A stretch of 64,000 nt of DNA from a virus. Shown piece by piece: positions 2,641 to 53,798 of the stretch. The notes under the pieces are model-generated. The model had not been told where the DNA came from. It searched no databases and worked only from the letters and a program-made list of their open reading frames with translations. Position 1 is the stretch's first letter. Each line of letters opens with the position of its first letter. The position numbers and the translations under genes are program-made. The stretch is from the IMG/VR virus record IMGVR_UViG_3300003323_001142, positions 37,032 to 101,031 of that record; one strand, 5' to 3'.

Positions 2641-3570
2641 ATGACCGAACCCAGAACCGAAGCCGACGCGATTGCGGAAATCATCAGTAAGCAAGCGACG
2701 GCCGAAATCATTCAGCTCAAGAGCCCCTTTCCCGAGGATGCAACGATTCCGGGGAGTATCCCGCTCATCGCGCGGCCGACCACGGGCGGGCAGATCGCGG
2801 TCGAGAGCGCGAAGAAGCTGCTCGAAGAGTACCGCACCGCTCCCGCTCGGCGCACGGGCACCGCCAGATTCGTGGACCTCGATTCGTTCATCCTCCACGT
2901 GAATCGCTTCAAGGACGAGCACTCGCTGGTGTTCGCCAATCCAGATCGATCGAATCCAGCCCTCACCGCCGTGCTCAACTATCACGAGAAGGATGCGACG
3001 GGCGCTCCGCGGTTCGGGGACCATCGGAGCGCGTACGCATTCCCGCTCTCCGACGAGTGGAAATACTGGCAACAGAAGCACGATGAGAAGCTCGATCAGG
3101 AGGACTTCGCGCAGGTCATCGAAGATCGCATCGACGACGTGATCGAGCCGGGCGCCGCGACGAAGACGGCGAAGGAATTCGCGGATGAGTACGGCGTGAC
3201 CTTCGCGACGCGTGCGCGTCTGATCGAGCTCTCCAAGGGGCTGGCCATCAACGTGGGCCGCAAGGTCGTGAACCAGCGTAACGGGCAAACCGGCGAGTTG
3301 CGTCTTCAGTTCGAGGAGACCCACTCGGACGCGGGGGGAGGGGCGCTCAATGTGCCCGACGCGGTCCTGCTTTCGATACCTGTCGTCCGAAATGGCCCGC
3401 TTTACCAGGTGCCAGCAAGGCTTCGGTATCGCGTCAACGGCGGCGTCATCACCTGGTGGTTCAATCTGCATCGCACCGACGTCGTGTTCGAGGACGCATT
3501 CAAAGAGTCATGCGACAAGGTGCTCGACCGCACGCAGCTCAACGTCCTGCTCGGCTCACCGGAGTCCTGA
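2641..3570 (+). CDS. DUF2303 family (YfdQ-like) phage protein
   Basis: A 309-residue product; ATG 2641 follows AGGAGA. The features match the DUF2303/YfdQ family: an N-terminal segment ending in a Pro-rich link, FVDLDSFILHVNRF, the SLVFANPD strand, a central LNYH motif, WKYWQQKH, and a C-terminal beta-rich half. The length is normal for the family. The function of DUF2303 is unknown; genes of this family typically lie in early or recombination modules of temperate phages. The 70-nt gap to the next start holds nothing else. Confidence 0.85.
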   Translation: MTEPRTEADAIAEIISKQATAEIIQLKSPFPEDATIPGSIPLIARPTTGGQIAVESAKKLLEEYRTAPARRTGTARFVDLDSFILHVNRFKDEHSLVFANPDRSNPALTAVLNYHEKDATGAPRFGDHRSAYAFPLSDEWKYWQQKHDEKLDQEDFAQVIEDRIDDVIEPGAATKTAKEFADEYGVTFATRARLIELSKGLAINVGRKVVNQRNGQTGELRLQFEETHSDAGGGALNVPDAVLLSIPVVRNGPLYQVPARLRYRVNGGVITWWFNLHRTDVVFEDAFKESCDKVLDRTQLNVLLGSPES

Positions 3571-16016: not shown

Positions 16017-17903
16017 ATGGGCGCAGCCGTGGCGATCGAACCTCTTCCCGAACAGCCGACCGAGGTGCCGGAGCGGAGACTCTCGCCCGCGGAAGAGGCG
16101 AGGCTTGTTCGGGAGAACCAAGGCCTCGTGCACTTCTTCGCGCGACGCCAGAAAACGACCAGCTACGACGACGCTGTCCAGGCTGGGATGATCGGTCTGC
16201 TGATAGCGATCAGGAAATTTGAGCCAGAGCGCGGCCTCAAGCTGTCGACCTATGCCCAATATTGGATCCGCCAAGCCATCGATCGACAGGGATTCGCCGA
16301 AGACCCGAAGGGAGATACGCCGAATCTGGCGCGCACCCGGTATAAGATTCGCGAAGCGACCAAACAGCTAAAGGCGGAAGGCGTTGAGCGGCCGACCATT
16401 GCGCAGGTAGGCGAACGAGCAAAGATATTCCCGGCGACTGTGGCGGCAGCGCTCGAATGGCGCAGCGCGCACGTCAGTTCCTTGGATGCGCCCATCGGGG
16501 AGGACGACGGCGCGGCGCTTGTGGACATGGTTCCCGACGATGGCGCCGGGCCAGAGTCGGTCGTAGCCGAATCCGAGGCCATGGCTATGTTGCGCAAGCA
16601 GCTGGATTGTTTCTCGCGTATGTTGCCGCCACGAGAGGCGATTGTTCTGAAAGAGCGGCTCCTAGCTGAGCAGCCCTCAGGACAAAGAGAGGTGGGCGAG
16701 CGCATCAAGCGAACCAAGCAGCGCGTTCAGCAGCTTGAGACAACTGTACTCGATAAGCTTCAGAAGTACATGCGAAGAGTGCACAGAGAGGATTTCGACG
16801 TGCGTGCGGCATTGGCTGCTCCGGTTACGAAACTTAGGCCACAGTCGTTCGGCCAGCCAATAGAGGCATTATTGGATAGACCCGAGCCGGCGCCTGTGCG
16901 CTCGGTTCCGGTCGCAGCAAATGCGGTCAGTGTGCCTGCGGCGAAAGCGCGGGGGTATAAGGTCCCAACCTGCGCGAAGTGTGGCGCACCGCTGTCCGTC
17001 CGATCGTTACAGCAAGGATATGACCGCTGTGGCGTATGTCGTCAACGCGGTCCCGAGAAGCACCAGGATCGGGCCATTCCGGATAATCCTGTGAGTGGCT
17101 CGGGTCGGGCTCGGGCGCCAGGTACGGGGAACGTGTGGCACAAGAAGGGGCGCTGGTATGCGAAGGAGCCGGAATCGATCCAGGATGGCAGGCGGTTCGC
17201 GCGATACATCGGCTCGTTTGCGACGGCGGAAGAGGCGCACGCAGCGTGCGATAAGTGGGTCGAAGAGAACGGTGGCCCGAAAGTGGAGCGGGTTCTTCCG
17301 ACGTGCAACGAACCCGGATGTTCAACCTTTCTGAACCAGCGAAGCCTTGAGGCTGGCGATGGGCTGTGCGGAGTACACCGACGGGATCGAAAGAAGATGG
17401 CCGAGCGGGCGAAGGGTGAAGTGGTTGCGGGCGGGCCATCGGCAATCACGGCGTTGGCTGTGGTCGATCGTGGTCCGAGCGGAACCGAAGAGCGAACGGA
17501 GCCGGCGGTAGATACGATTGCTAGCGTCCGCGCGTTTCTCGCAAAGCGCGATGAGCTAAGGGGTAAACTCGAGAGCGAGTTACAGGCGGCCAAGGCTCGT
17601 GTGCGCGAGATCGAGGACCTGCTGGCCGAGTTTGGCGGATCGTCTGCGCGTCCGATTGTGAGGGCCGAGCGGACCACGGCTCCGTCGGCGCGAACTGAAC
17701 GCAGGCAGCTTATCAAGGAGTTCGTAATCAACGCGCTGGGCGATAACCGTGGTCCGATGAAGGGGGCCGAGGTTGTGCACATCGTTCAAAGAATCGACAG
17801 CTCGATCCACCACACGTCGGTCTACCAAGCTCTGTATGCGCTGCACCGAGAGCGGAGAATCTGTGCGGATGACGGGCAGAATCGATACTGGCTGCGGGCA
17901 TGA
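16017..17903 (+). CDS. Sigma-70 family protein fused to Zn-ribbon, AP2-like and winged-helix domains
   Basis: A 628-residue protein (ATG 16017; CAGGAGA upstream). Residues about 28-92 are sigma region 2: NQGLVHFFARR, DDAVQAGMIGLLIAIRKFEP and KLSTYAQYWIRQAI. Regions 3 (about 100-165) and 4 (about 195-260, LPPREAIVLKERLL and RIKRTKQRVQQLE) follow. Then come a four-Cys ribbon (about 319-341), an AP2-like domain (about 371-416, GNVWHKKGRWYAKE and YIGSFATAEEAHAACDKW), a second Cys cluster (429-455), a coiled coil (505-540) and a C-terminal winged helix (560-628). Known sigma factors lack these extras. Likely redirects host RNA polymerase to phage promoters; codon use is somewhat AT-richer than neighbours. 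Confidence 0.85.
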   Translation: MGAAVAIEPLPEQPTEVPERRLSPAEEARLVRENQGLVHFFARRQKTTSYDDAVQAGMIGLLIAIRKFEPERGLKLSTYAQYWIRQAIDRQGFAEDPKGDTPNLARTRYKIREATKQLKAEGVERPTIAQVGERAKIFPATVAAALEWRSAHVSSLDAPIGEDDGAALVDMVPDDGAGPESVVAESEAMAMLRKQLDCFSRMLPPREAIVLKERLLAEQPSGQREVGERIKRTKQRVQQLETTVLDKLQKYMRRVHREDFDVRAALAAPVTKLRPQSFGQPIEALLDRPEPAPVRSVPVAANAVSVPAAKARGYKVPTCAKCGAPLSVRSLQQGYDRCGVCRQRGPEKHQDRAIPDNPVSGSGRARAPGTGNVWHKKGRWYAKEPESIQDGRRFARYIGSFATAEEAHAACDKWVEENGGPKVERVLPTCNEPGCSTFLNQRSLEAGDGLCGVHRRDRKKMAERAKGEVVAGGPSAITALAVVDRGPSGTEERTEPAVDTIASVRAFLAKRDELRGKLESELQAAKARVREIEDLLAEFGGSSARPIVRAERTTAPSARTERRQLIKEFVINALGDNRGPMKGAEVVHIVQRIDSSIHHTSVYQALYALHRERRICADDGQNRYWLRA

Positions 17904-21766: not shown

Positions 21767-21973
21767 ATGCACGCAAAGAAGCGCGTCCCCGTCGAACTCT
21801 CCCCTGGCGCGTATGAGAAGCTGGGCGAGACCCGAGCGCTTGCCGGCGTCTCATCGAACGCCGAGGTGCTCAGGCATGCGCTGCGGCTCTACGAATACCT
21901 GCATCGGCAGAAGGCCGACGGGTGGTCCGTTCACCTAGTGAAGGACGACCGGGCCAAAGAGCTGGTGTTCTAG
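21767..21973 (+). CDS. Ribbon-helix-helix DNA-binding protein
   Basis: A 68-residue protein (ATG 21767). VPVELSPGAYEKLGETRAL then SSNAEVLRHALRLYEYL matches the beta-strand, helix A, turn, helix B layout of CopG/Arc-type regulators. The tail of 20 residues is polar. Such proteins repress their own genes by binding palindromic sites; an inverted repeat lies upstream and two identical AT-rich palindromes lie immediately downstream. Confidence 0.7.
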   Translation: MHAKKRVPVELSPGAYEKLGETRALAGVSSNAEVLRHALRLYEYLHRQKADGWSVHLVKDDRAKELVF

Positions 21974-22028
21974 GTATATATACCTTTGCGCGAATCGCGC
22001 GTTGGCGGTCGCTGGGTATATATACCCA
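21973..22028. promoter_or_regulatory. Two identical TATATATA palindromes (candidate operators/promoter)
   Basis: GGTATATATACC occurs at 21973-21984 and again at 22015-22026, where it extends to TGGGTATATATACCCA (22013-22028). Centres are 42 bp apart, four helical turns. Between them lies GCGCGA-A-TCGCGC (21988-22000). In a GC-rich phage such sites are striking. They separate the RHH gene from the next operon and are good candidates for its binding sites. Confidence 0.6.
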
Positions 22029-28707: not shown

Positions 28708-30867
28708 GTGGCTGAGGACTGCACCAGCGTCCCGAATTTCGGGATGGCGGTTCCGCGCGGCGGATCGTCGTGTGCGAAGTGCCGCTACCTCGAAACGCGA
28801 GAAGGCCGGCCGTTCTGTCGCAACGACGACTTCATCCGGTTTCTCGGCGTGAGGCCCGAAAGCACAAGCGCCGTCCACATCCCCGCGCCCGATGATGATC
28901 CGGGACGCTATTGCTGCAATGCGTTCTCGCCGTCCGCCGACTTCATGCTCGCGAGCGCCAAAGGCAGCAAAGACGGCAGTGGCAACGCAGCGCCCGCAGC
29001 CGTGACGCTCGACCTGGGCATGGACGACGTGCACATCCCGAGCGTGCCCACGAAAGCGCCAAGGACGAGGACCATGTCCAAGCTCACCACGCGACAGCGC
29101 AAGGCCATTCCGAAAGGCCAATTCGCCGATCCGGAGAATAAGGCGTACCCGATCCACAATGCCGCTCACGTTCGGAATGCGGCGGCGCGCCTCGAGCAGC
29201 AGAAGGGCTCGATGGCGCCCGAGAAGTACCGATCGATCCGGCGGAACATCGCCCGCGCCGCTCGCAAGTTTGGCATCAAGTCGGAATACAACACGAAGAC
29301 CGCACGGATGCGCGGTCGCGGTATGAGACTGTCGCTGGACCACCCGCAGCATGGCCGGCTGGAAGTGCGGACGATGTCCGCTGGCCCCGGGGGCGTCTTC
29401 TATCTGGCGCCACTGTCCGCCGCCATCGACCCCGAGTCGGCGCCGGGGCAGACCGCCGTAGCGCTCGACGATGCCGGTGGCTCGCCCAAGCGATTGGTCT
29501 GGAACCAGCTCGCTGAAGTCGGCCAATTCAAGGGCCACCCCGCTGGCCCGTTCGAACTCACCCCGCGGGTGTTTGCCGAGATCGTCTCGAACTTCGAACG
29601 CGAGCACATTCCGATCCCCATCGACGCCGAGCACGCCTCGGAGGCTCCCGGGACACAGGGCTCGGTGCCAGTGGTGGGAGCCCCCGCAATGGGCTGGATC
29701 CACCAGCTGGACAACCGCGGAGACGGAGGTCTTTGGGGTCTCGTCGAGTGGCTGGAGCCAGCGCGGTCCTACATCAAGGAAGGCCGCTATCGGTTCATCT
29801 CCCCGGCCGTGCGCTTCAACTCGCGCGACCCGAAGACCGGTTCGCCGATCGGGGCCCGGCTGAGCAGCGCCGGGATCACGAACACCCCGTTCCTGAAATC
29901 GATGCAGCAACTCGCTGCAAAGGACAACGCCATGACGACTCAAGCGACCGAATCGGTCGTGCTCAGCAGCCGGTATGTCCACGCCGCTGCTGACTACATG
30001 CCCCGTATCCGTGCAGCGCTCAAGCTCCCGGATATCGCGACAGCCAAGATGTGTTCGGACCACCTGGGGATGCTGCGCGACCATTTCGAGTCCGCCGGCA
30101 ATGACCCCAACGCCGTTCACGAAGGCGTCCGGCTATCCGATTACATGGGGGCGCTACGCGACGGGCTCGGCGTCCCGATGGGCATGACATACGAGGAGAT
30201 GCTCGACCTCGTCGAAGACATGATCGAAGCGGCCATGGACGAGCACGTGGCCGAATACCACAGCCCCGAAGAGGTCGGCGCGAGCTACTCCGACGCGGCC
30301 CCTCAGGAGACGACGATGACCGACAAGGAACTCACCACGCAACTGACCGAGGCGAAGGCCCAGGTCATCACCCTTACCGATAAGGTCACCTCGGCCGAAT
30401 CGGCGACCGCCAAGCTGAGCCTTCAGCTGAAGGACTCGGACGCCAAGATCGGCGAATTGACCGCCCGGATCGCGGCGCTCGAGACGGAAAACAAGAACCT
30501 GAAGGAAGAGCAGGCGAAGCAGACCGACAAGCTCCTTTCGGACAAGGTCGAGACCGCGTTCGTGACGTACAAGGACGCAAAGAAGCTCACCGACGACGAC
30601 AAGCGAGCGATGCTCATCACGCTGAAGAGCGACGCCGCGCTGTTCGATAAGCTCTATCCGGCGGTCGCTCCGCAGCGGCAGCACCTGCTCCGCGATCTCG
30701 CGAATACCCGCCCCGGCAATGCCGAGTCGACGGTCCCGAACACCGCAGCGGTGCCGGACATGAAGACCTTGACCGACAAGTTCGTAAAAGAGGGCAAGTC
30801 GATCGAGGAAGCGGTTTCGCTCGCGTACAAGACCATCAACGAACAACTCTCGCAGCCTGTTGCCTGA
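28708..30867 (+). CDS. Head maturation protease-scaffold fusion (Mu I-like) with extra N-terminal domains
   Basis: A 719-residue protein from GTG 28708. Residues 20-70 hold a Cys cluster (CAKCRYLETREGRPFC, CCNAF) resembling a small iron-sulfur-type or zinc site. Residues about 124-190 (LTTRQRKAIPKGQF, then YPIHNAAHVRNAAARL) match DUF6582. The protease (about 262-405) shows GQFKGHPAGPFELTP, IPIDAEHASE, APAMGWI and RYRFISPAV. A scaffold region with coiled coil follows (540-620) and a polar C-terminus. Mu makes I protease and Z scaffold from one gene in a similar way; the first two domains are additional. Confidence 0.85.
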   Translation: MAEDCTSVPNFGMAVPRGGSSCAKCRYLETREGRPFCRNDDFIRFLGVRPESTSAVHIPAPDDDPGRYCCNAFSPSADFMLASAKGSKDGSGNAAPAAVTLDLGMDDVHIPSVPTKAPRTRTMSKLTTRQRKAIPKGQFADPENKAYPIHNAAHVRNAAARLEQQKGSMAPEKYRSIRRNIARAARKFGIKSEYNTKTARMRGRGMRLSLDHPQHGRLEVRTMSAGPGGVFYLAPLSAAIDPESAPGQTAVALDDAGGSPKRLVWNQLAEVGQFKGHPAGPFELTPRVFAEIVSNFEREHIPIPIDAEHASEAPGTQGSVPVVGAPAMGWIHQLDNRGDGGLWGLVEWLEPARSYIKEGRYRFISPAVRFNSRDPKTGSPIGARLSSAGITNTPFLKSMQQLAAKDNAMTTQATESVVLSSRYVHAAADYMPRIRAALKLPDIATAKMCSDHLGMLRDHFESAGNDPNAVHEGVRLSDYMGALRDGLGVPMGMTYEEMLDLVEDMIEAAMDEHVAEYHSPEEVGASYSDAAPQETTMTDKELTTQLTEAKAQVITLTDKVTSAESATAKLSLQLKDSDAKIGELTARIAALETENKNLKEEQAKQTDKLLSDKVETAFVTYKDAKKLTDDDKRAMLITLKSDAALFDKLYPAVAPQRQHLLRDLANTRPGNAESTVPNTAAVPDMKTLTDKFVKEGKSIEEAVSLAYKTINEQLSQPVA
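30316..30867 (+). CDS. Nested in-frame scaffold protein (Mu Z-like)
   Basis: ATG 30316 lies in frame within the protease gene and has a strong AGGAGA five bases upstream. It would make a 183-residue product beginning MTDKELTTQLTEAKAQVITL, a coiled-coil scaffold equal to the C-terminus of the fusion. Another internal ATG at 29932 follows AAAGGA. Separate scaffold production from an internal start is known in lambda and Mu. Its use here is inferred. Confidence 0.6.
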   Translation: MTDKELTTQLTEAKAQVITLTDKVTSAESATAKLSLQLKDSDAKIGELTARIAALETENKNLKEEQAKQTDKLLSDKVETAFVTYKDAKKLTDDDKRAMLITLKSDAALFDKLYPAVAPQRQHLLRDLANTRPGNAESTVPNTAAVPDMKTLTDKFVKEGKSIEEAVSLAYKTINEQLSQPVA

Positions 30868-30929
30868 GCCCATCCGCTCAGTGAAACAACAAGGCAAACG
30901 CATTCCCAAAACCTGACGCGCAGCGAATA

Positions 30930-30968
30930 GCCGCGCCCTTTCGGCTGCTCTCGAGAATCGAGCGCGGC
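30930..30968. promoter_or_regulatory. Hairpin in the gap before the decoration gene
   Basis: GCCGCGC (30930-30936) pairs with GCGCGGC (30962-30968), with an inner stem CTCGA/TCGAG (30950-30954/30958-30962). It lies in the 118-base gap between scaffold and decoration genes. There is no T-run, so it may be an mRNA stabiliser or processing signal for capsid mRNA. The GC-rich background lowers confidence. Confidence 0.35.
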
Positions 30969-30985
30969 CACGGAGATGTGTATCC

Positions 30986-31393
30986 ATGGCTCAGATCAAT
31001 CAATTGGGCGGCATTGCCGTCGCCGGCGGCGATATCCCGGTCAAGAACTACGGCGGGTCGGACATCGCCGACGGGCTCGCGGTCAAATACGACACGAGCA
31101 ATCCCCCGGGGACGAACACGCCCGCTGGCGTGGTCATCACTTCGAGCGATGCAAACCCGATCGGGTTCGCGCTCGGCACGATTCCCGCTGGCAAGATGGG
31201 ACTCGTTCGCCGCCTCGGTCGCGCGGTGGGCACTGCCTCCGCGACCATCCACGTCGGCGATGTGCTCATGACGGACAGCGCCGGCAAGGTGCTGCCGCAA
31301 ACTGCTGGCAAATACCAGATCGGCATTGCCGCTAGCGAAGCCGTGAACGCCGACAAGGTCGCGGTCGATATCAGCATTGCGAAGGACGCCTAA
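30986..31393 (+). CDS. Head decoration/cement protein (DUF2190-like)
   Basis: A 135-residue protein (ATG 30986, GGAGATG upstream). The Gly-rich opening (GGIAVAGGDIPVKNYGG), PIGFALGTIPAGKMGLVRRLG, the TIHVGDVLMTDSAGKVLP turn and GIAASEAV fit small capsid cement proteins that follow the protease-scaffold gene. It would stabilise the capsid surface. The family match is by pattern only. Confidence 0.65.
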   Translation: MAQINQLGGIAVAGGDIPVKNYGGSDIADGLAVKYDTSNPPGTNTPAGVVITSSDANPIGFALGTIPAGKMGLVRRLGRAVGTASATIHVGDVLMTDSAGKVLPQTAGKYQIGIAASEAVNADKVAVDISIAKDA

Positions 31394-34586: not shown

Positions 34587-35072
34587 ATGCTAACAGCAAT
34601 GCTCATGGTGTTGCCAAACCCTTGGCACACCGTCGACCATTTCGGGCGACCCGCGGGAGCCTTTCCCCGGGAGCGCCACGCGAACACGCTCGGGCACCAG
34701 GGCTATGTGGGCGCCGTTGCGGTGACCACGACGCCGGAGCCGCGCGCGGCGGGCGACTTGCGTTCGCCGGAGCAGGATACGTGCTGGCAGTTCTCGAAAG
34801 AGCCGGTTTCCGTACCCGATAACAAATACTACCGCGACGCGCTCCGCAGCGGCGAGCTCCTGCCAGGTGATCTGAAGTCCGCGAGAGCTGCCGGACTCGA
34901 GCACCGCGAATACGCAAGCCTGATCGCCGCCGCAAAGATCGCAGCGGAGGCCAAGTGGCGAGCAGCGTTCGGCGAGTCGCTTCCGGCGGTCGACCCGTTC
35001 GCTAAGCCGACACCCGGGGTTCTGCCGCCAGAGTCCCCCGCGGCCCCCGCCTCGTTCGCGGAAAAGGAGTAA
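34587..35072 (+). CDS. Hypothetical tail-region protein
   Basis: A 161-residue protein (ATG 34587; AAAGGA upstream). An N-terminal hydrophobic-aromatic stretch (MLMVLPNPWHTVDHFGRPAGAF) resembles DUF2635-like small tail proteins found just before the sheath in Mu-like phages; the middle is polar and the C-terminus Pro-rich. The function is unknown. Confidence 0.55.
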   Translation: MLTAMLMVLPNPWHTVDHFGRPAGAFPRERHANTLGHQGYVGAVAVTTTPEPRAAGDLRSPEQDTCWQFSKEPVSVPDNKYYRDALRSGELLPGDLKSARAAGLEHREYASLIAAAKIAAEAKWRAAFGESLPAVDPFAKPTPGVLPPESPAAPASFAEKE

Positions 35073-35075
35073 GCG

Positions 35076-36623
35076 ATGTCGAGCATCGTCATTCCGGGTC
35101 TGTCAAATACGACCAAGACCCCCAAGTTCTATGGCGAGGTCAAGTACACGGCCGGCGCCATCACGGCATCGTCGATTCCTCTTCGCGTCCTGCTCGTTGG
35201 CAACAAGCTCAGCACGGGTGCGATGACCGCGGACGGTTCGCCGGTCCAAGTCGGGTCCGCTGACGAGGTGGACACGCAGGCAGGAGCCGGCTCCGAGCTC
35301 GCCATGATGGCCTACGGCATGGATGGCAACGGCGGCGCGCTCCAATTCGGCAGCGACGGCATCGAGCTATGGCTTGGCGCCGTTGCAGAGTCGGCAGGCG
35401 CGAAGGCTGCCGCCACGGTCGCCATCTCCGGCACGTGGACCGGCAGCGGAACCGTGACCTACATCATCGACGGCTTCCCGATCCAGATCGCGATCAACCC
35501 GAGCGACGTGACGACCGACGTGGCCACACGCCTTCGCGACGCCGTCAACGCGATTGCTCGCTTCCCGATGACGAGCACGGTGGCATCGTCGACCACGACG
35601 ATCACCGTCCGAAACAAGGGCCCGCGCGGCAACTGGCACTCAATCTTCCAGGACACCACGAGCGCCCCGGCTGGCTTCGTCTCGACGCTCGGCGGTGGCG
35701 GCGCATCGATGACAGGCGGCGGCCTGCACTTCGCTGGCGGTACCACGGCCGACGACCCCACGAATTTTATCAACGCGATCGCCTCGACCGAGTTCGACCG
35801 AATCGGTCTGGCCTGTGGCGACAACACGAGCGACGCGACCAACCTCGCGAAGTGGAAGACCGGCGTCAACAACGCTGCGGCGCCGAGCGTCGGCATCTTC
35901 GACTTCGTGGTGGTGATGTCCAACGACACGCTCACGAACGCCGCATCGCTGACCGTCACCACGCTGAACCATGCGCAGTTCGAGCTCCTATGGCAGCTCA
36001 ATGCCCAGACGCACCCGTCGGTCTGGGCTGCGGTACACGCCGCGCAGCGTTCGGTGGCGGAGCAGGTCGATCCGGACGCGTCTTACGACAGCGTGACCGT
36101 CCCCGGATGCGTGCCCTCGCAGCAAACGGCGGACTACCCGGCGTCGTACGAGACGGCGCTCGGCGAAGGCGTCACCCCGATCCAGCTCAACACCGACGGC
36201 AGCGGGTCGATCGTCCGCGCGATCACCACGTATTCGCGCAACGGGAGCAATCCCGACTACCGCGTACTCGACACGAGCCAGGCCGTGGTGCCGGTGCACA
36301 TCCTCACGCGGCTCAATCTGCTTTGGACCACGGTGTTCAAGCCGAACAACCCGCGCGTGGAAGACGACCCGCCGGATTCGGTGGTCGAGCCGCCCGAGGG
36401 CGTAGCGACGCCATCGACGTGGCGCTCGGCGATCATCGCGGATCTCAAGACGGCCGAGAAGGGCACCGGTTATCCCGCTCCGATCATCTCGGACGTGGAT
36501 GGCAACCTGCCGATCGTTCAATTCAACAGCGTCGGGAAGTTCCTGGTCGCCGCCGTGCCGGTGGTCCCCGCGCCCAACAATCACCTCGTCGGCGTCTCTG
36601 TACGCAACGTGACGAGCGCGTAA
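35076..36623 (+). CDS. Tail sheath protein (Mu gpL-like)
   Basis: A 515-residue protein. It precedes the tube gene, as in all contractile-tail phages. It has an N-terminal beta region (SSIPLRVLLVGNKL), a middle domain with repeated strands (GTWTGSGTVTYIIDGFPIQI), and a C-terminal domain with ILTRLNLLWTTVFKPN, DLKTAEKGTGYPAP and a final strand. This matches the architecture of Mu-type sheaths. Contraction drives the tube through the host envelope. Confidence 0.85.
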   Translation: MSSIVIPGLSNTTKTPKFYGEVKYTAGAITASSIPLRVLLVGNKLSTGAMTADGSPVQVGSADEVDTQAGAGSELAMMAYGMDGNGGALQFGSDGIELWLGAVAESAGAKAAATVAISGTWTGSGTVTYIIDGFPIQIAINPSDVTTDVATRLRDAVNAIARFPMTSTVASSTTTITVRNKGPRGNWHSIFQDTTSAPAGFVSTLGGGGASMTGGGLHFAGGTTADDPTNFINAIASTEFDRIGLACGDNTSDATNLAKWKTGVNNAAAPSVGIFDFVVVMSNDTLTNAASLTVTTLNHAQFELLWQLNAQTHPSVWAAVHAAQRSVAEQVDPDASYDSVTVPGCVPSQQTADYPASYETALGEGVTPIQLNTDGSGSIVRAITTYSRNGSNPDYRVLDTSQAVVPVHILTRLNLLWTTVFKPNNPRVEDDPPDSVVEPPEGVATPSTWRSAIIADLKTAEKGTGYPAPIISDVDGNLPIVQFNSVGKFLVAAVPVVPAPNNHLVGVSVRNVTSA

Positions 36624-45781: not shown

Positions 45782-46273
45782 ATGCCGGTCCCTATCTACA
45801 ACACCTTCAACGGCGACCCCGGCAACTCCGTTGCCCCGCGCCGCCCGTCGCTGAATGACATGGGCGGCGCGACCAAGGTGAACGCCGTCAATCCGCCGGA
45901 CCCTGTGCGGATGCCGACTGCGCCCGAGGACAACCAAAAGCAGATGCAGGCGGTGTCCGTCGGCAAGGTTGTTCCGGTTTGCGTGGTCTCGGTCCACTTC
46001 TCGGGCGGCACGCCATCGGCGGCGCAATTCACCGCGGCGGGCGACAACATCACGATCCCGACGTTCACGGTGACCGACAACGGCGTGGGCGACACGACGA
46101 TCTCGTGGCCGGCCAACACGTTTCCGCCGCCGGTGGTCGACCACGACGCCGCGGTGACCGGGGCCACGGGTGGATTCGCCGCAGCGCAGACGCTCACCAA
46201 TTCGGTCCGCGTCCGCACCTTCGGCACTGGCGGCAGCGCGGCCGACCTCAGCTTCAACGTCCGGATCTACTGA
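45782..46273 (+). CDS. Hypothetical baseplate-region protein
   Basis: A 163-residue protein (ATG 45782) that is beta-rich in its second half (GDNITIPTFTVTDNGVGDTT). It lies between gp47- and gp48-like genes, a position with no Mu counterpart. It may be a fibre-attachment or decoration protein. Confidence 0.5.
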   Translation: MPVPIYNTFNGDPGNSVAPRRPSLNDMGGATKVNAVNPPDPVRMPTAPEDNQKQMQAVSVGKVVPVCVVSVHFSGGTPSAAQFTAAGDNITIPTFTVTDNGVGDTTISWPANTFPPPVVDHDAAVTGATGGFAAAQTLTNSVRVRTFGTGGSAADLSFNVRIY

Positions 46274-46274
46274 C

Positions 46275-47243
46275 GTGCCGCTCTACTCCGCCTTCACACC
46301 GTTTGGGCTCCTGGACTACTCATCCGACCCATCGCCCGCCGAAAACATCTACAACGCCGGCGCCAAGCTCCTCGGGGCCCCGGAGAACTTCTCCCTTGAG
46401 CCTGGCTCGCACGCCGAGGCGATGCTCTACGCCGATGCGATGGGCCTGGCCCGCGTCTTCCAGACCGATCGGAAGATGCGTAACCAGCTCGACCCGCTCA
46501 AGGCGACGGACATGCTGCCCGTGTACGAGGCAGCCTATGGCCTCATCCCAAAGCCGACGGACACGATCCCGCAGCGTCAAGCGGCCCTCGCCTCCGCCAT
46601 GCGAGCTCCGGAAGGGGCAACGGTCGCAGCGGTCACGGCGGCGCTTCAGGCGGCACTCGGAAGCGACTTCGTCTCGTACCGGCTCACGCCGGTCAGCGAG
46701 ATCGTGAACTTCCCCGCGAGCCCGGGCGACGCGAACAGCCCGAGCAAGTGGACCGACAAGGGCGTGAGCCCGCAAGTCGTCCGGTTGACCGGCGCGGTGG
46801 TATCGCTCGGGGTGCCGGTGGCGGTTCCCTACGAGACGATTGTGGATGCGGGAGAGCCGCGGATCTTGGTGGGGGAGCAGATTGTTGTGTCGGTCAATAA
46901 CATTGGACTGGCAGAGCGCGTCAACATCACAGCGATCGGCGCTGGGACGTTCACGGCCACGTTCACCAAGGTGCACGAGGTCGGGGACATCGCGACGACC
47001 GCCTACTTTCCGTTCTGGCGGACTACCAAGAAGCACTCGCTGGTCGTCCTCACCAGAGCGGCGACGCTGGATCCGGAGAAGCGCCGTACCGTCAACGAGA
47101 TCATGAAACGGATGGTCACCGGGTGGAGCACCTGGGCGATCTCGCCGAAGATCGACGGTACGCACGCGGGCGGATTCATCGTGGATGACGCCACGCGCGG
47201 CCGCGTCGACTTCAACAACATCGACACGTTCACCTACCCGTAA
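46275..47243 (+). CDS. Baseplate/tail-fibre connector (Mu gp48/DUF2313-like)
   Basis: A 322-residue protein from GTG 46275. The first 130 residues have the helical pattern with LDPLKATDMLPVYEAAYGLIP and ROQ-like turns typical of gpI/YmfQ-type proteins. The second half is beta-rich with WAISPKIDGTHAGGFIVDD at the end. By position it would link fibres to the wedge. Family assignment is tentative. Confidence 0.62.
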   Translation: MPLYSAFTPFGLLDYSSDPSPAENIYNAGAKLLGAPENFSLEPGSHAEAMLYADAMGLARVFQTDRKMRNQLDPLKATDMLPVYEAAYGLIPKPTDTIPQRQAALASAMRAPEGATVAAVTAALQAALGSDFVSYRLTPVSEIVNFPASPGDANSPSKWTDKGVSPQVVRLTGAVVSLGVPVAVPYETIVDAGEPRILVGEQIVVSVNNIGLAERVNITAIGAGTFTATFTKVHEVGDIATTAYFPFWRTTKKHSLVVLTRAATLDPEKRRTVNEIMKRMVTGWSTWAISPKIDGTHAGGFIVDDATRGRVDFNNIDTFTYP

Positions 47244-47253
47244 AGCATAGCAG

Positions 47254-48105
47254 ATGGCGCATAACGACTTCGTATTGGGTGGGTCCGGATCCGGAGCGTG
47301 GACAGGCACGCCAGTCGTCCACGCGATGATGGAGAAGTTCGATCAGCGCCAGTTCGAAGCCATCAACGGGGACCTCGGGGGCACGTGGGCCCCGTCGTCG
47401 ATCATCACGATCGGAGGGAGCGGCATCGCTCTCGCTGGCACGAACCATCAGGTCACAGGGACGCTTACCGTCAACAGTGGCGCGACGCTTCAGCTCGCAT
47501 CCGGCTCGCTTGTCAACAGCCCGGGCGCGTCGCTGACCGGGACGTACACCTTCGGGCAGAACGCTGGCCCCGGCACGAATGCGACGGTCACGGTGAATAC
47601 CGGCTCCTCGCTGGTGCTGCACTCGTCGGTGTCAGTCGACAATTCGACCTGGTCGATGGTGGGGACCATCGTCAACATGACGAACGGCGGCGAGTTCAAC
47701 ATCAACGGCACCGTTGGCGGCGCACAAATCAACGCGACAAGCTGCGCAGTCGGGTTCACAAATTCGACGATCACCTATACGAATACTCTGATCAAGGGCG
47801 GTCGAGCCGACTATCAAGACATTGCAGCCAATCCCACATGGGACGCGAACCGAACTTTTACTGTATCGGACGGTCGGATTATCGACGCGACCGCGATTAC
47901 CGCGCCACACACGTGGATTTTATCAACCACTGGAGCCCTGAAGGGGGACAGGATCACGTTCGTGAATCGAGGAAACACGAACATCGTGACTCTGCACGTG
48001 GGGGCAGCCACATATTCGGTCTACGTCAATGCAGGCAACAGTTACGAGGTTGAGTTCGTGTTCAGCGGCACGGCGTGGGTTCAGATCGGAGCGGCTGGCG
48101 GGTAA
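47254..48105 (+). CDS. Tail fibre protein
   Basis: A 283-residue protein (ATG 47254). After a start with VVHAMMEKFDQRQFEAING comes a run of Ser/Thr/Gly/Asn-rich beta segments (ALAGTNHQVTGTLTVNSGAT, SLVNSPGASLTGTY) like a solenoid or trimeric fibre, and a C-terminal strand with YEVEFVFSGTAWVQIGA, common at ends of fibre proteins. It follows the gp48-like gene directly. Confidence 0.65.
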   Translation: MAHNDFVLGGSGSGAWTGTPVVHAMMEKFDQRQFEAINGDLGGTWAPSSIITIGGSGIALAGTNHQVTGTLTVNSGATLQLASGSLVNSPGASLTGTYTFGQNAGPGTNATVTVNTGSSLVLHSSVSVDNSTWSMVGTIVNMTNGGEFNINGTVGGAQINATSCAVGFTNSTITYTNTLIKGGRADYQDIAANPTWDANRTFTVSDGRIIDATAITAPHTWILSTTGALKGDRITFVNRGNTNIVTLHVGAATYSVYVNAGNSYEVEFVFSGTAWVQIGAAGG

Positions 48106-48107
48106 GC

Positions 48108-48689
48108 TCAGAAGCTGAAGCCATCTGGCTTCTGGGCGTCGCACCCGAGCAAAAAGTTGACAGGGTCGATCGTGGTTGTTCGGGAGCACGTCGTGGTGTC
48201 AGCAATGACAACGCATTCGTCCGGAACCGAAATTGTGGCGGTAGCGGCGGCGTGACAATCGTAGAGCCACTTCGTGCCAGCGGAGCCGGAAACCTCGCAG
48301 CCCATCCCGTGACCCCACGAGCACGAGGCGCCAGATGGCTGGACACTGCCGGCATCGCCGCCAACGTTGCCGCCAGATGAAGAGCCCCCGACCGTGTTCC
48401 CGGCTGAGCCTGTGCCACCGCTTGACGAATTGGCAGATCCCGTAGCCCCGGCAACGCCAGTAGTCCCCGTCGATCCAGTCCCGCCGCCGCAATCGCACAT
48501 TCCCCAGACCCCGGACGAGCTGCATACCTGAGCTCCCGGCGTGGCCGTCCCTGGGCAGGCGCATGCTTCGGTCTTCCCCTCTGTGCATGTTGGCGAGACG
48601 CCGGGGTTCACGTCCCCATTGCCGTCTGACCCAGAACACCCCGCCAAAGCTAGAGCAAGTACCGCCGAAAGTTTCGTCCACGTTGCCAT
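48108..48689 (-). CDS. Cys-rich lipoprotein of myxobacterial type (cargo gene)
   Basis: A 193-residue protein on the minus strand, tail-to-tail with the fibre gene (2 bases apart). The signal peptide ends with the lipobox LALAGC at about residue 18. Then follows a Cys module (CTEGKTEACACPGTATPGAQ, VCSSSGVWGMCDCGG) and a long Gly/Ser/Thr linker, as in many Polyangia lipoproteins, and a C-terminal domain with three further Cys. It is likely cargo that changes the host surface, or a captured host gene. Confidence 0.75.
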   Translation of the reverse strand: MATWTKLSAVLALALAGCSGSDGNGDVNPGVSPTCTEGKTEACACPGTATPGAQVCSSSGVWGMCDCGGGTGSTGTTGVAGATGSANSSSGGTGSAGNTVGGSSSGGNVGGDAGSVQPSGASCSWGHGMGCEVSGSAGTKWLYDCHAAATATISVPDECVVIADTTTCSRTTTIDPVNFLLGCDAQKPDGFSF

Positions 48690-48792
48690 CTATCCACGGT
48701 AACGTAGCGCCACGGCACTGCAAGGGGTCGCGGGTGTTCAGTAGCAGTCCCAACAGACCGCGCTGTAGCCTGATCGGTTGGAGGGACCAGCA

Positions 48793-49332
48793 ATGTGGTT
48801 CGTTTCAGCCGGTGGACAGCCAATAGGGCCGCTTGATGATCACGGCGTGATAGAGGCGATTCGCGGCGGCCTGCGGGCAACGCGGGTCACTCCTGCCGAC
48901 CGCGCCGCTTGGGTACCGATCAACCAGCATCCGGTTTTCGGCTCGATTAGGCCGTCGGCGCCCGATCAGCCCGAGGCGGTTGCCACAGTGGCGCTGGCCG
49001 TGCCGCTCCTCACGGCGCTCGCGTTCTGGTTCATCCCGATCGGAGGGATCGGAGTCTCGTTCATCAGCGCGGTGCTCGTCTCCGCCTGTCTGGTCGGAGC
49101 CGACGCTGCCGTGCTTGGCGCTGGCAGCCCCGACGAAAAAGGCAACGCCCGCACGGGCCCAGTCGCGTGGCTGTTATTCGCCGTGCTCCTGTGGCTCATT
49201 GCCCTGCCGATATGGATGTTCAATCGCGCCAGCTACGATGCGAAGGGGCGCGGCATCGAGGCGGTTCTCGTCGTGATCCTCTTTATGGGGAGCTGGGTCG
49301 CCGTGGTCGCTCACCTGGCCGGATTGCTATAG
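48793..49332 (+). CDS. GYF_2-domain multi-pass membrane protein (cargo gene)
   Basis: A 179-residue protein; ATG 48793 follows TTGGAGGG. Residues 2-50 match the GYF_2 domain (WFVSAGGQPIGPLDDHGVIE, then WVPINQHPVF). Four hydrophobic segments follow (about 67-82, 85-105, 120-140, 155-178). Such GYF_2-plus-membrane proteins are common in deltaproteobacteria and rare in phages. It diverges from the lipoprotein gene and may form a cargo unit with it; possible superinfection exclusion is an inference. Confidence 0.68.
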   Translation: MWFVSAGGQPIGPLDDHGVIEAIRGGLRATRVTPADRAAWVPINQHPVFGSIRPSAPDQPEAVATVALAVPLLTALAFWFIPIGGIGVSFISAVLVSACLVGADAAVLGAGSPDEKGNARTGPVAWLLFAVLLWLIALPIWMFNRASYDAKGRGIEAVLVVILFMGSWVAVVAHLAGLL

Positions 49333-49361
49333 CGGAGAGCAGCGCGCGGGCGGAGAAGGCA

Positions 49362-49577
49362 TCACTTCCCCAGATCCGGACGCTCCTTCACGGCTTTTTC
49401 GAGGATGACGCGGACCAAGTCTGAGCGACTCATCTTCGGCCAGGCGCGCTTCTCGTTCTCTTCGGCCAGCCACGCATCGAGCTGGCGAAGAAGCCCGACG
49501 GGCATCCGCACATTCATCGGAGCGTGCTCGGGCTCGGGCGCTGGCTTCCTGCTCATGGGCTGGGGTGTGTGAAGCAT
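49362..49577 (-). CDS. Ribbon-helix-helix repressor-like protein
   Basis: A 71-residue minus-strand protein (start at 49577; 49556 and an upstream ATG at 49628 are alternatives). APMNVRMPVGLLRQLDAWL and SRSDLVRVILEKAVKERP form the strand, helix and helix of an RHH protein of the Arc/Mnt/CopG type. It is divergent from the antirepressor operon. A 6-bp inverted repeat covers its own start region, suggesting self-regulation. Confidence 0.68.
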   Translation of the reverse strand: MLHTPQPMSRKPAPEPEHAPMNVRMPVGLLRQLDAWLAEENEKRAWPKMSRSDLVRVILEKAVKERPDLGK

Positions 49578-49650
49578 ATCACACCGCTGTAACCACGAAA
49601 GGTACCTCTGCAACCGGGCGCTTGACACAAGCGACTACCGGTGTAAAACG
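49564..49650. promoter_or_regulatory. Divergent control region with operator-like repeats and a TTGACA promoter
   Basis: GGTGTG (49564-49569) pairs with CACACC (49580-49585) across the RHH start. The related sequences CCGCTGTAACCACG (49584) and CCGGTGTAAAACGG (49638) are direct repeats. TTGACA (49622-49627) with TAAAAC 16 bases later (49644-49649) forms a sigma-70-like promoter pointing right, towards 49721. The second repeat overlaps the -10 element, so a repressor bound there would block the promoter. Confidence 0.55.
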
Positions 49651-49663
49651 GGAGTAAACATAG

Positions 49664-49705
49664 GCGAGCCCGCCGCCAACTTTCCACGGGAGACGGCGGG
49701 CTCGC
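49664..49705 (+). promoter_or_regulatory. 12-bp inverted repeat in the leader, just before the ribosome site
   Basis: GCGAGCCCGCCG (49664-49675) pairs perfectly with CGGCGGGCTCGC (49694-49705), loop 18 bases. AGGAGGG (49706-49712) starts directly after the stem and ATG follows at 49721. The stem is strong and could hold back or stabilise the mRNA or act as an operator. No T-run follows. Confidence 0.55.
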
Positions 49706-49720
49706 AGGAGGGTCACTCCC

Positions 49721-50134
49721 ATGCCCACGGTATCCCACCCCCGCGAGCCCAGCAAGCTCGCGACCATCCACATTTTCCCCGCTCTCGCTCGGGCGCCCGA
49801 GCCGCCCCGAGCTAGCCGCCGGTCGGATGCGATCCTCAGCGAGGCCACCCGCTACGGCGAATCGCTCCGCGTCCGCTGGCTGTCCAACGAGCCGCTGACG
49901 CGCCGGGAGTTCGTCCGGGCCGACCGGCTGATCCAGCGGGCCTACCGGGCGCTCTGCACGGAGTACGCGGCCAGCGGGCTCACTGCGGCCGACCGCCACT
50001 GGTTCATGGGCGCATGCACGGGGCTCGGGATGACCGACAGCTTCGTGTCCGACTGGCTGCGGGACTCGGAGCCGGGGAAGGTCGTGGATTTGGGGAGGGC
50101 GCGGAGGGCGAGACGGAAGGGGGCGGGGCGATGA
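49721..50134 (+). CDS. Hypothetical protein upstream of antirepressor
   Basis: A 137-residue protein with AGGAGGG and ATG 49721, driven by the TTGACA promoter. It begins Pro/Ala-rich and has a helical centre (EPLTRREFVRADRLIQRAY) and WFMGACTGLGMTDSFVSDWL, ending in a basic tail. The family is unknown. It overlaps the antirepressor gene by four bases. Confidence 0.6.
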   Translation: MPTVSHPREPSKLATIHIFPALARAPEPPRASRRSDAILSEATRYGESLRVRWLSNEPLTRREFVRADRLIQRAYRALCTEYAASGLTAADRHWFMGACTGLGMTDSFVSDWLRDSEPGKVVDLGRARRARRKGAGR

Positions 50135-50952
50135 AGGGGCGGAAAGAGGGAAGCGAGGGATCGATGCAGCAGTTGGAAAAGTACGAGTTTGACGGCGACC
50201 AACTCGACCTGCTCAGGCAGGAGACGCGAGTTGCGGTGGTCGTGCGCCGCGTTTGCGAAGCGCTCGGGATTAGCGAGGAACCGCAACGCCGTAAGCTTCG
50301 AGAGTGCGCATGGGCGCGCGCCACCATAATGGTGGCACACGACGCAAGCGGCCGAGAACAGGAGCTATTCTGCCTCGACCTCGACTCGCTACCGATGTGG
50401 TTGGCAACGATCAATCCGGGCAAGGTCCGGGAAGAACTCCGCCCCAAGCTCATCCGATATCAGCGGGAGTGCGCTCAAGTCCTACGAGATCATTTCTTGA
50501 AGGCGCCTAGCAAGCCGGCCGCTATCGATAGAGAGGAGCTCCTGGCGATACTGTCCGGCATGCTGGGCCCGAGCCTTGGTCAGATGCTCGACCGTCAAAT
50601 CGCAGCCCGGCTCGACCCGGTCATCGCCAGGATCGAGTCTGCCTTCGGCACGGTCCAGCAGCACCCAGAGGGCCTACTCCCGCGCGCGGAGCTCAAAGAT
50701 CACCCGACGGAGCTCGCGCAGTGCCGGAGTCTCATTACGCAGACGGCGAGAGCACTGGGCGTCAGTTGGAACAAGGTGCAGGGCGAGCTCCTGAAGAAAT
50801 ACCAGGTCCGTTCTTACCGCCGCCTTCCCTTCATGGTCTGGGATGCGGCGCGCGACCTCTTGATTGCAATGATGGCCGCTGCGCCCGTGCCCAAGAAAAA
50901 CGCTCGCGGCTACCAGAGATCCCTGTTCGATTTCGCGCCGAAGCCGAACTAG
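50131..50952 (+). CDS. Phage antirepressor (P22_AR_N domain)
   Basis: A 273-residue protein (ATG 50131, ATGA overlap; ATG 50164 after GAGGGA is an alternative). Residues about 35-130 match the P22 antirepressor N-terminal domain: RRVCEALGISEEPQRRKL, ELFCLDLDSLPMWLATINPG and LIRYQRECAQVLRDHF. The C-terminus has a helical link and a basic domain with RSLITQTARALGVSWNKVQG. Antirepressors inactivate phage repressors and favour lysis. Here it is paired with an RHH protein like P22 ant with mnt/arc. Confidence 0.85.
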   Translation: MKGRKEGSEGSMQQLEKYEFDGDQLDLLRQETRVAVVVRRVCEALGISEEPQRRKLRECAWARATIMVAHDASGREQELFCLDLDSLPMWLATINPGKVREELRPKLIRYQRECAQVLRDHFLKAPSKPAAIDREELLAILSGMLGPSLGQMLDRQIAARLDPVIARIESAFGTVQQHPEGLLPRAELKDHPTELAQCRSLITQTARALGVSWNKVQGELLKKYQVRSYRRLPFMVWDAARDLLIAMMAAAPVPKKNARGYQRSLFDFAPKPN

Positions 50953-51053
50953 CGATTATCGCCAATCCCTCTCTCCAAAGCGCCCTGCCGGCCAGCAACA
51001 GCCCGCGGGGCGCTCCTGCATCTGCCTCCTGACGAGACGCCAAACCCACCCGA

Positions 51054-52331
51054 ATGCCCGCCCCCGCCTTCGCCCGCGTCCTCGTCTCGCTGAACGGCGG
51101 GCCCCAGCAGACCGGCGACGTGGTCGCGCTCAACGGGGACGTGGTCCAGCTCTCTGCGCAGAGCGTCGCGGGATTCGACAAGTACCGCTGGGAAGTCTAC
51201 AGCTACCCATCCGGGTGGAGTACCCCGGCCGGCTGGAATCTCGATAGCAGCACCGGCATCGTCTTCTCGACCGCGCTGTCGCCGCCTTCGTTCACGCTTC
51301 CAGCGCTCCCGCTATGGGGTAAGTGGCTCACGCGGCTCCTTATCAACGAGGCGCTCAGCAACGACGAGGCGCGCGATCCGTCGCTGGGGCTGAACGACGA
51401 GTCCACGATCGTCAACGTCCTGTCTCCGAACAACCTGCGCGACACCGCAGGTCAGGAGACGACGCAGGCGGATGCCTTCCGAGGCTTCGTCGGAGACATT
51501 GCCCGCAACTGGCGGGTCATCGACGCGGCTCTCAGCGGCTTCAGCCCGATCGGTACGCTGACGCCGGGCCCGGGCAATACGCTTTTCGTCAACAACCCGG
51601 CCGGCAGCGCGGTCATCAATGCGCTGCTCGTCGACGCGAACGTCTCCGCGATCGCGGCCATCGCCGGGACCAAGATCTCTCCCAACTTCGGCCCCCAGGC
51701 CGTCGCCACCACCGGCACCCTCTCCGCCGGCAGCACCACCGTCTCCGCCCTCACCGTCGGCTCCCTCTCCGGCATCCTCCACGCCGCATCCGGCGTCATC
51801 TCCGCGAGCCCGGTCAGCCTCACCGCGGACGTTTCTGGGATTCTTCCGCCTCCCAACGGCGGCACCGGACTCAGCGCCGTAGTGACCGGTCTCCTCGTCG
51901 GCAACGGTTCAACGTACTCAGGCGTCACCGCCCCCGACACCCGCATCCCCTTCTGGTCCAGCAACACCCTCAGCTCGAGCTCCGGCCTCACGTTCGCCAG
52001 TAGCACCCTCTCGGTCACCAACGTCACGATCGCGACGGCGCTGACCCTCTCCGCGCTCGCAGCAACGAATGGCCCGCTCTACATCACCGGCGGCGTCGTC
52101 GGCGTCGGCCCAGGGGGCGCCGATGCCGCGACCAACATCAACGTCGCCGACCGGACCGCGCTCGCCAATCGCGACACCGCGAACCTACTCGACGGCTCCC
52201 TCGCCATCGTGCGTTCGCCAGTGTCGGAATACCAACTCGTCAAAACCAGCACGACGACGCCGGACGGCTTCAGCTTCATTGCGGCCAAGAACGGCGGCGG
52301 AACGCTCGGTAACTGGATCCTGACCGACTGA
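51054..52331 (+). CDS. Tail fibre protein
   Basis: A 425-residue protein (ATG 51054). The first domain (FARVLVSLNGGPQQTGDVVA, DKYRWEVYSYPSGW) is Ig-like; from residue 165 the sequence is repetitive and poor in charge (TLSAGSTTVSALTVGSLSG), with the LPPPNGGTGLSAVVTGLLVG motif found in many phage and bacterial fibre repeats. The C-terminus is SFIAAKNGGGTLGNWILTD. It probably extends from the baseplate. Confidence 0.75.
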   Translation: MPAPAFARVLVSLNGGPQQTGDVVALNGDVVQLSAQSVAGFDKYRWEVYSYPSGWSTPAGWNLDSSTGIVFSTALSPPSFTLPALPLWGKWLTRLLINEALSNDEARDPSLGLNDESTIVNVLSPNNLRDTAGQETTQADAFRGFVGDIARNWRVIDAALSGFSPIGTLTPGPGNTLFVNNPAGSAVINALLVDANVSAIAAIAGTKISPNFGPQAVATTGTLSAGSTTVSALTVGSLSGILHAASGVISASPVSLTADVSGILPPPNGGTGLSAVVTGLLVGNGSTYSGVTAPDTRIPFWSSNTLSSSSGLTFASSTLSVTNVTIATALTLSALAATNGPLYITGGVVGVGPGGADAATNINVADRTALANRDTANLLDGSLAIVRSPVSEYQLVKTSTTTPDGFSFIAAKNGGGTLGNWILTD

Positions 52332-52531
52332 TGGCATCGCCCCCGACGACTTCTACCCCCTGCCACGGCTGCGGGAGGACGGCCGCGGACTGCCCGCCGG
52401 ACGAGCGCGAGATGTGGTTTCCGATCACGGACGCGAAGGGCAATCTCCGCTGGTATTGCCACCACCACAACGTCTCGCCCGAGATGCAGGCGAGGCAGAA
52501 GATCGCGCTGAGGTACCACGATGGGGCTTAG
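52331..52531 (+). CDS. Small Zn-binding protein in the fibre cluster
   Basis: A 66-residue protein with CHGCGRTAADCPPDE, a WFPITDAKGNLRWYC strand and HHHNVSPEMQ: Cys and His residues spaced for a zinc site. The ATG (52331) overlaps the previous stop. Function is unknown; it may be a fibre-assembly helper. Confidence 0.55.
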   Translation: MASPPTTSTPCHGCGRTAADCPPDEREMWFPITDAKGNLRWYCHHHNVSPEMQARQKIALRYHDGA

Positions 52532-53798
52532 CCGTTATTACATGCGGCAACCCAAGTGGTACATGGACCCGCAGAACGCGACCACGTTTGCCAATAACTC
52601 GAACAGCGGTGTCGATGCAGCGCATCCGATTCGAGACGACGACGAGCGTGTCCGTCGTATGGGCATCGGACCCTACTGGAACGCAGGCGCCTACGACATC
52701 TATTACCTGTCGGACGTTCCCGCCAACCAAGAAGTGCGCTTCGATGGTGACCGCGCATCCAATTCTTCGATCCGCATCCACGGCTCCGCCACGGCAGGTC
52801 AGGGCCAATCGACCATCTACAGCGGCACGATCAACACATTAACCCCGCTGAACCGGGCCACGAACCAGCCGTACGAGATCGTGTCGAACGGGCTCGCCAC
52901 GACGTGGTCTGCAGCGGGTGCGTTGAACCACCGGATCCGGATGACGAGCGGTGTCGCCGGCGCCAAGGCGTGGCCGATCAAGGATCTTGGCTCAAAACGC
53001 GCCCGGATCTCCCAGTTCACCCAAGCGAACAACTACGTCGTCCCATTCGCGTCGTCGACCACGTCCGCGATCCCGTCTGCCTCCAATACCTTCGTCGTGG
53101 AGAAGCTCACAGCGATCCCGAACTTCCACTGGAGCATCACCGCGAGCGATGACTTCAGTGTGAACTTCGGCACGAGCTACGAGCCGAATGTGATCGAGAG
53201 CCTCGACATCGGTGCTGGGAACCTGACGCTGACCGGCTCCGATTGGATCACGTTCGACGGGTGCGAAGTCCGGATGTATTCGGACAACCCGACGCACGCG
53301 ATGAGCCTCAAGTTCGTGGGGTGTGGATTCCGACAAGAGATCTTTTTCGCCGCCACGTTGAATAGCCCAATAGCGGTCTACGGTGGATATGGGCAGGGCC
53401 AGTTCCTCTTCATCGAAGACTCGGGCGGTACCCCCATCTTCGATACCGATTTCATGATGCAGGGCGGCTACATCTTGTCCCATTCGCCGCGTGGCTGCGT
53501 GCTCGCCAACGTCGCAGTATTCGATAGCCCCTCCCACGGGATCCAAGTGCACCGTTACGGCCGCGTGTCGACCACGGGCACCGCCGATGCGAACAGCAGT
53601 GGCGCGAACTGGTGGGGCTCTGGCAATGCGCAATACGGTCTCTCGATCGGCTCGGAGGCCCGCATTGGTGGCGGGCCGACTGCTGGCACCATCACCGGCG
53701 CTGCTGGCGATGTAGTGATTGGCACCATCCCGAAGGTCTGGGCCCAGTCGCAATTTCGCGAGCTCACTGGCGGCGGCATGAGCGCATTCCGAGAATAG
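52521..53798 (+). CDS. Beta-helix tailspike-like protein
   Basis: A 425-residue protein (ATG 52521, overlapping the previous gene by 11 bases). The N-terminal MGLSRYYMRQPKWYMDPQNA looks like an adaptor. The body has regular strand-turn repeats with VRFDGDRASNSSIRIHGSAT, LTGSDWITFDGCEV, FVGCGFRQEIFFAAT and CVLANVAVFDSPSHGIQVHR, typical for right-handed beta-helix (pectin lyase-like) folds. Such spikes often bind or cut surface polysaccharide; no catalytic residues can be named. Confidence 0.7.
   Translation: MGLSRYYMRQPKWYMDPQNATTFANNSNSGVDAAHPIRDDDERVRRMGIGPYWNAGAYDIYYLSDVPANQEVRFDGDRASNSSIRIHGSATAGQGQSTIYSGTINTLTPLNRATNQPYEIVSNGLATTWSAAGALNHRIRMTSGVAGAKAWPIKDLGSKRARISQFTQANNYVVPFASSTTSAIPSASNTFVVEKLTAIPNFHWSITASDDFSVNFGTSYEPNVIESLDIGAGNLTLTGSDWITFDGCEVRMYSDNPTHAMSLKFVGCGFRQEIFFAATLNSPIAVYGGYGQGQFLFIEDSGGTPIFDTDFMMQGGYILSHSPRGCVLANVAVFDSPSHGIQVHRYGRVSTTGTADANSSGANWWGSGNAQYGLSIGSEARIGGGPTAGTITGAAGDVVIGTIPKVWAQSQFRELTGGGMSAFRE

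Follow-up and report, generated by a model that had tools for sequence, protein, structure and literature searches.

The closest described counterpart of the locus reported here is the immI region of phage P22, which lies within the late operon, in DNA that differs greatly from one P22-like phage to the next (PMC8022706), and in which Mnt and Arc act on ant while Ant acts on C2 (PMC11016777). Antirepressor genes are likewise found outside the immunity region in Gifsy phages, where they act on non-cleaved repressors (PMC3121763); these genes (gfoA, gfhA and gftA) encode small proteins under LexA control and, unlike the locus examined here, not a P22_AR_N protein beside a ribbon-helix-helix (RHH) gene. 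The DNA analyzed, termed the window, is a stretch of 64,000 nucleotides (positions 37032-101031 in a virus record of 101 kb) for which a first-pass annotation had proposed a parallel to immI. Like P22 immI, the locus was found to have a divergent RHH-type gene and a promoter directed toward an operon that ends in a P22_AR_N antirepressor gene, and to lie among late/tail genes, well away from the main immunity pair, at a site whose content differs from relative to relative. Unlike P22 immI, it has only one RHH gene, which is not of the Arc/Mnt family (PF03869), an orphan gene for a predicted helical protein in place of arc between promoter and antirepressor, and an antirepressor without a P22_AR_C domain. 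In a simple consensus scan of 46000-53000, no minus-strand promoter-like site was seen that could serve a sar-like antisense RNA on ant. The phage is contractile and integrase-carrying and probably has a host of a different phylum. Thus, the proposed parallel stood for the divergent gene, promoter, antirepressor operon and tail region but not for the Arc/Mnt family, arc and P22_AR_C, and because these last three are missing we class the cassette as a variant with immI-like logic and not as a member. We give a probability of roughly 55% to the reading that the cassette is an RHH-silenced antirepressor unit with immI-like logic that was assembled separately, its operator binding, repression and target being presumed.

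The cassette and its place among the tail genes

The features of the locus and its flanks are as follows (window coordinates).

47254-48105, plus strand: tail-fibre-like gene of the MAHN... type, bordering the slot on the left; position after baseplate genes as in loci L185, L187 and L195-L201
48108-48689, minus strand: cargo, a myxobacterial-type lipoprotein rich in Cys with lipobox LAGC; matched in 32 of the 379 Myxococcota genomes
48778-49332, plus strand: small membrane protein, cargo; hydrophobic stretches in the sequence and a weak N-terminal GYF_2 match
49362-49577, minus strand: probable CopG-type RHH repressor; sub-threshold RHH_5 and RHH_1 matches, frame open to GTG 49628
49583-49646, no strand: candidate operators, a weak lead; ACCGCTGTAA (49583-49592) and ACCGGTGTAA (49637-49646)
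49622-49649, plus strand: promoter of the orphan gene-antirepressor operon, TTGACA-16-TAAAAC; 10/12 consensus matches
49664-49705, plus strand: leader hairpin with a 12-bp perfect stem; arms 49664-49675 and 49694-49705, 18-nt loop
49721-50134, plus strand: 137-aa orphan protein, occupying the place of arc; Shine-Dalgarno AGGAGGG 8 nt before the ATG
50131-50952, plus strand: antirepressor with N-terminal P22_AR_N domain and a C-terminal part of its own; PF10547, phrog_524
51054-52331, plus strand: tail gene, right flank of the slot; 39% identity over 158 residues to L201:15466-16257

Five genes occupy the 2.95 kb between the two tail genes and read minus (lipoprotein), plus (membrane protein), minus (RHH-like), plus (137-aa orphan) and plus (antirepressor). 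The two flanking genes bear out the earlier placement of the locus inside the tail/fibre region. In the nearest relative, L201, three fibre genes of the MAHN/MTH type, one of them related to 47254-48105 (L201:13079-14134, 41% identical over the N-terminal 104 residues), are followed after 23 bp by the relative of 51054-52331. The matching two tail genes were found to be about 12 bp apart or less in two Myxococcota prophages (L185 and L187) and three viral contigs (L196, L198 and L200). A single minus-strand lipoprotein-like gene fills the gap in L195, lipoprotein-like minus-strand genes lie directly beyond the fibre gene in L199 and L206, more than 3 kb of other, unrelated cargo occupies the slot in L205, and a 1-kb gap of ambiguous content is present in L203. 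These are neighbour comparisons at 30-50% identity, with fibre-gene orthology assigned partly by position. The comparison with related prophages that had been suggested at the outset thus returned a slot that is near-empty in several and holds lipoprotein-like or unrelated cargo in others. Since the tail genes of relatives nearly touch or have other cargo between them, the five-gene cassette is, as judged from these comparisons, cargo in a variable tail-gene slot. No relatives of the antirepressor, RHH or orphan protein were detectable in 60 related baseplate loci. All cassette frames are open, and the GC3 of the cassette did not differ significantly from that of the late genes (p 0.08). The small membrane protein, with its N-terminal match to GYF_2 (PF14237, E 0.0021, below cut-off), is a possible exclusion protein.

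Terminase, portal, head protease, major head protein, contractile sheath and baseplate genes were all found in the phage. The record also encodes a tyrosine integrase, and it gave no match to the Mu transposase C-domain (PF09299), in a search that gave only weak matches in its control genomes and on a record that is possibly incomplete. With this integrase and no Mu transposase C-domain match, the earlier description of the phage as Mu-like is wrong as regards transposition. Its assignment to a myxobacterial host fared better: a myxobacterium is probably the host, because the lipoprotein has matches in Myxococcota (32 of the 379 genomes) and contractile prophages there share the same baseplate gene order. 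Elsewhere in the record, a 628-aa protein with sigma-70 regions 2, 3 and 4 (window 16017-17903, plus strand) is a phage-encoded sigma factor, perhaps for late genes; a LexA DNA-binding domain (E 5e-16) is present in a 126-aa protein encoded on the plus strand at record 35040-35420 (L003:16040-16420); another RHH_1-type gene (E 6.7e-5) lies on the minus strand at record 2844-3089; and an inverted repeat, GGTATATATACC, with 12-bp arms 30 nt apart, was observed at window 21973-22026.

The RHH-like gene, its intergenic region and the operon

The small minus-strand protein was searched against 24,736 Pfam families, and at E values up to 10 its sole matches were RHH_5 (E 0.061) and RHH_1 (E 0.11), both below cut-off. 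Its PHROG matches were two families of transcriptional repressors (E 0.027 and 0.058). We consider it very probably an RHH protein because both Pfam matches are to RHH families and both PHROG matches are to transcriptional repressors. The original RHH call is thereby retained as regards a divergent minus-strand gene with RHH families as its only Pfam matches, but every one of these RHH matches is below cut-off. A single-sequence monomer AlphaFold model displayed an extended stretch followed by two helices at moderate confidence (pLDDT 70), and Foldseek with this model returned no significant match. Arc/Mnt family PF03869 matched neither this protein nor anything else in the record, nothing significant was found for it in 379 Myxococcota genomes, phages and plasmids, and no close relatives were detected in viral contigs. 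A start at ATG 49577 or 49556 is likelier than one at GTG 49628, which would overlap the -35 box.

The divergent intergenic region (49578-49720, 143 bp) contains a promoter that reads toward the orphan gene and antirepressor, with TTGACA at 49622-49627, 16-nt spacing and TAAAAC at 49644-49649. Of Markov copies of this region, 0.1% contained a match as good (10/12), which bears out the TTGACA promoter as sequence; a stricter scanner, which requires a T at the final -10 position, did not report it. The intergenic region showed no promoter on the minus strand. Operator repeats were not above chance: the region holds one 9/10 pair, ACCGCTGTAA and ACCGGTGTAA, the latter of which overlaps the -10 of the promoter, and such a pair was present in 29% of shuffled copies.

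Between the promoter and the orphan gene, the leader hairpin ends one base before the Shine-Dalgarno AGGAGGG (49706-49712). It has a z of -4.75, pairs with a probability of 0.98 or more in almost every version of the transcript, and its stem is tied for the longest perfect stem in the 101-kb record. Because the maxima of simulated records also reach stems of 11-12 bp, the strength of the hairpin is its position and not its stem length. No Rfam match was obtained, and a DNA pattern for the hairpin matched 120 stretches and was uninformative. Two candidate roles were rejected: a plus-strand terminator, as no T run lies 3' of the hairpin, and a read-through RNA that hides the orphan-gene Shine-Dalgarno by an outer helix (GGGAGU/ACUCCC), as the Shine-Dalgarno was more open in longer transcripts.

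The orphan 137-aa protein had no match in Pfam, PHROG or NCBIfam, including none to RHH families, and is predicted to be mostly helical (low-confidence model); close relatives of this protein, as of the portal, were not found in the viral contigs. Its frame overlaps that of the antirepressor, whose listed open reading frame start (50014) is too early. The antirepressor likely starts either at ATG 50131, in an ATGA overlap with the stop codon of the preceding gene, or at ATG 50164, which fits the N-termini of homologues better. The call of a P22_AR_N antirepressor survived profile search, with matches to PF10547 at E 3.7e-31 (108.1 bits against a curated cut-off of 30.7) and to phrog_524, 'anti-repressor Ant', at E 1.5e-31. 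P22_AR_C was absent, the only other Pfam match at E up to 1 being one chance match.

Related antirepressor loci and the main immunity pair

Close relatives of the antirepressor were found neither in the viral contigs nor in the genome contigs searched, and no other locus with the RHH-orphan-antirepressor trio was found in either set. More distant antirepressors were reached by a seed alignment that included made-up family-consensus rows, used as a search pattern only, and the matches were verified against the window's own P22_AR_N domain. The closest P22_AR_N domains (L140, L141 and L143; 48% identity over the wider domain and up to 59% in the best stretch) belong to genes in the tail regions of phages, where no RHH gene was recognised; that of L140 comes after a baseplate/DNA-circularisation gene and that of L141 precedes a 1660-aa tape-measure-like gene. 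Pasteurella phage Pmp1 and Salmonella phage Arash also carry a P22_AR_N gene among structural genes. Because the domain recurs in tail regions where an RHH gene is not recognisable, domain and place are not diagnostic of immI.

The best full-length relative is an actinophage antirepressor encoded beside cro. The antirepressors of Gordonia phage Lton, Mycobacterium prophage prophi68-1 and Rhodococcus phage Mbo4 share the P22_AR_N domain, and for Lton (tblastn alignment over residues 42-242) and prophi68-1 the similarity extends into the C-terminal part. Unlike the cassette, all three have a cro-like gene as neighbour, within the main immunity region, and no RHH gene.

RHH neighbours were observed at P22-type loci (L130 and L131, and the prophages L150, L151 and L153), where the RHH genes score 1e-5 to 8e-31 on PF03869, several above the Arc cut-off. 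Few Myxococcota carry P22_AR_N: it was found in 5 of the 379 genomes sampled, above cut-off in four. Like the cassette, two of these genomes, both of Polyangiales (Polyangium fumosum, L134; and L162/L176) and so of the likely host phylum, have an RHH-like gene, here also below the Pfam cut-off, abutting a P22_AR_N gene; unlike in the cassette, it lies directly upstream on the same strand and is not divergent, and its product is not alignable end to end with the cassette RHH protein. A truncated P22_AR_N gene adjoins recombinase and lipoprotein-like genes in L144. We also observed nine P22_AR_N matches, several above cut-off, in one 176-kb virus record (G008; L146 and L180) and at least two in a 172-kb record (L149).

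A separate main immunity pair was supported by a minus-strand and a plus-strand HTH protein that diverge at record 30134-31087, arranged as CI and Cro are; the cassette starts about 54 kb away and would therefore be a second, distant regulatory region. On the opposite strand, the Cro-like frame is covered by a long open frame that has no family match and that we take to be spurious. The CI-like protein has no recognisable self-cleaving S24 domain; none was found in the record by a search that matched in 10 of 14 control genomes.

Proposed function and competing explanations

Supported directly are the gene content, the promoter sequence, the insertion in an otherwise empty slot and the separate immunity pair. 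In the RHH-silenced unit that we favour, the divergent gene would supply a lysogen of this temperate phage with RHH protein, which would bind 49578-49720 and keep the TTGACA promoter shut. Were the RHH protein missing or relieved, upon infection of a naive cell or some signal, the orphan protein and antirepressor would be made, and the antirepressor would then bind and disable an HTH repressor, which may be the CI-like protein of this phage or a repressor from another prophage. Counted against this reading are the sub-threshold RHH matches, the lack of RHH relatives and of significant operator repeats, the nearest P22_AR_N relatives without an RHH gene, and the failure to find the same trio elsewhere.

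In a competing explanation, the antirepressor would stand alone as an extra gene of the sort that recurs in tail regions, and the RHH protein would be an unrelated local regulator of, e.g., itself or the neighbouring membrane/lipoprotein genes. The nearest N-domain relatives agree with this, and the unrelated cargo held by the slot in relatives means that neighbours may be accidental; but the promoter in the shared divergent region reads into the antirepressor operon, and the pairing of RHH and P22_AR_N recurs in the two Polyangiales genomes and the P22-type loci, such that we regard a free-standing antirepressor as unlikely, if the most serious competitor. That the cassette is decaying cargo without present function, as the truncated gene of L144 might suggest, is improbable given its open frames, good Shine-Dalgarno and promoter.

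RHH proteins commonly serve as antitoxins, and the RHH protein could in principle be the antitoxin to a toxin encoded by the orphan gene, which is small and without family match, with the antirepressor as a passenger. Antitoxin and toxin normally share one operon, whereas the RHH and orphan genes are divergent; the orphan gene is moreover coupled to the antirepressor, and the missing family match speaks against a toxin as well, which makes this arrangement very improbable. Descent from a true P22 immI that lost arc and diverged would account for the same place by tail genes, the same divergent layout and the same antirepressor N-domain. The RHH protein is, however, not of the Arc/Mnt type, P22_AR_C and arc are missing, and the best full-length relative is the actinophage protein beside cro; to such descent we assign the slimmest chance.

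The separately assembled RHH-silenced unit thus remains the preferred reading. Its wider form, offered tentatively and as doubtful in its full extent, is an independently assembled immI-type module, carried in a tail-fibre slot otherwise filled by lipoproteins, in which the antirepressor would be controlled by one RHH repressor of the CopG type together with a structured leader and a helical orphan co-regulator; second immunity regions would then have arisen more than once as cargo of tail slots, in phages from different phyla. If the reading is true, immI-style bipartite immunity would not be peculiar to P22-like enterobacterial phages but a design arrived at a second time, from other parts, in the phages of myxobacteria, in which the control of lysogeny has received little study. 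Induction of a phage without a recognisable self-cleaving repressor domain would thereby be explained, and the tail-fibre gene junction would be marked as a place to search for both immunity cargo and surface (lipoprotein) cargo.
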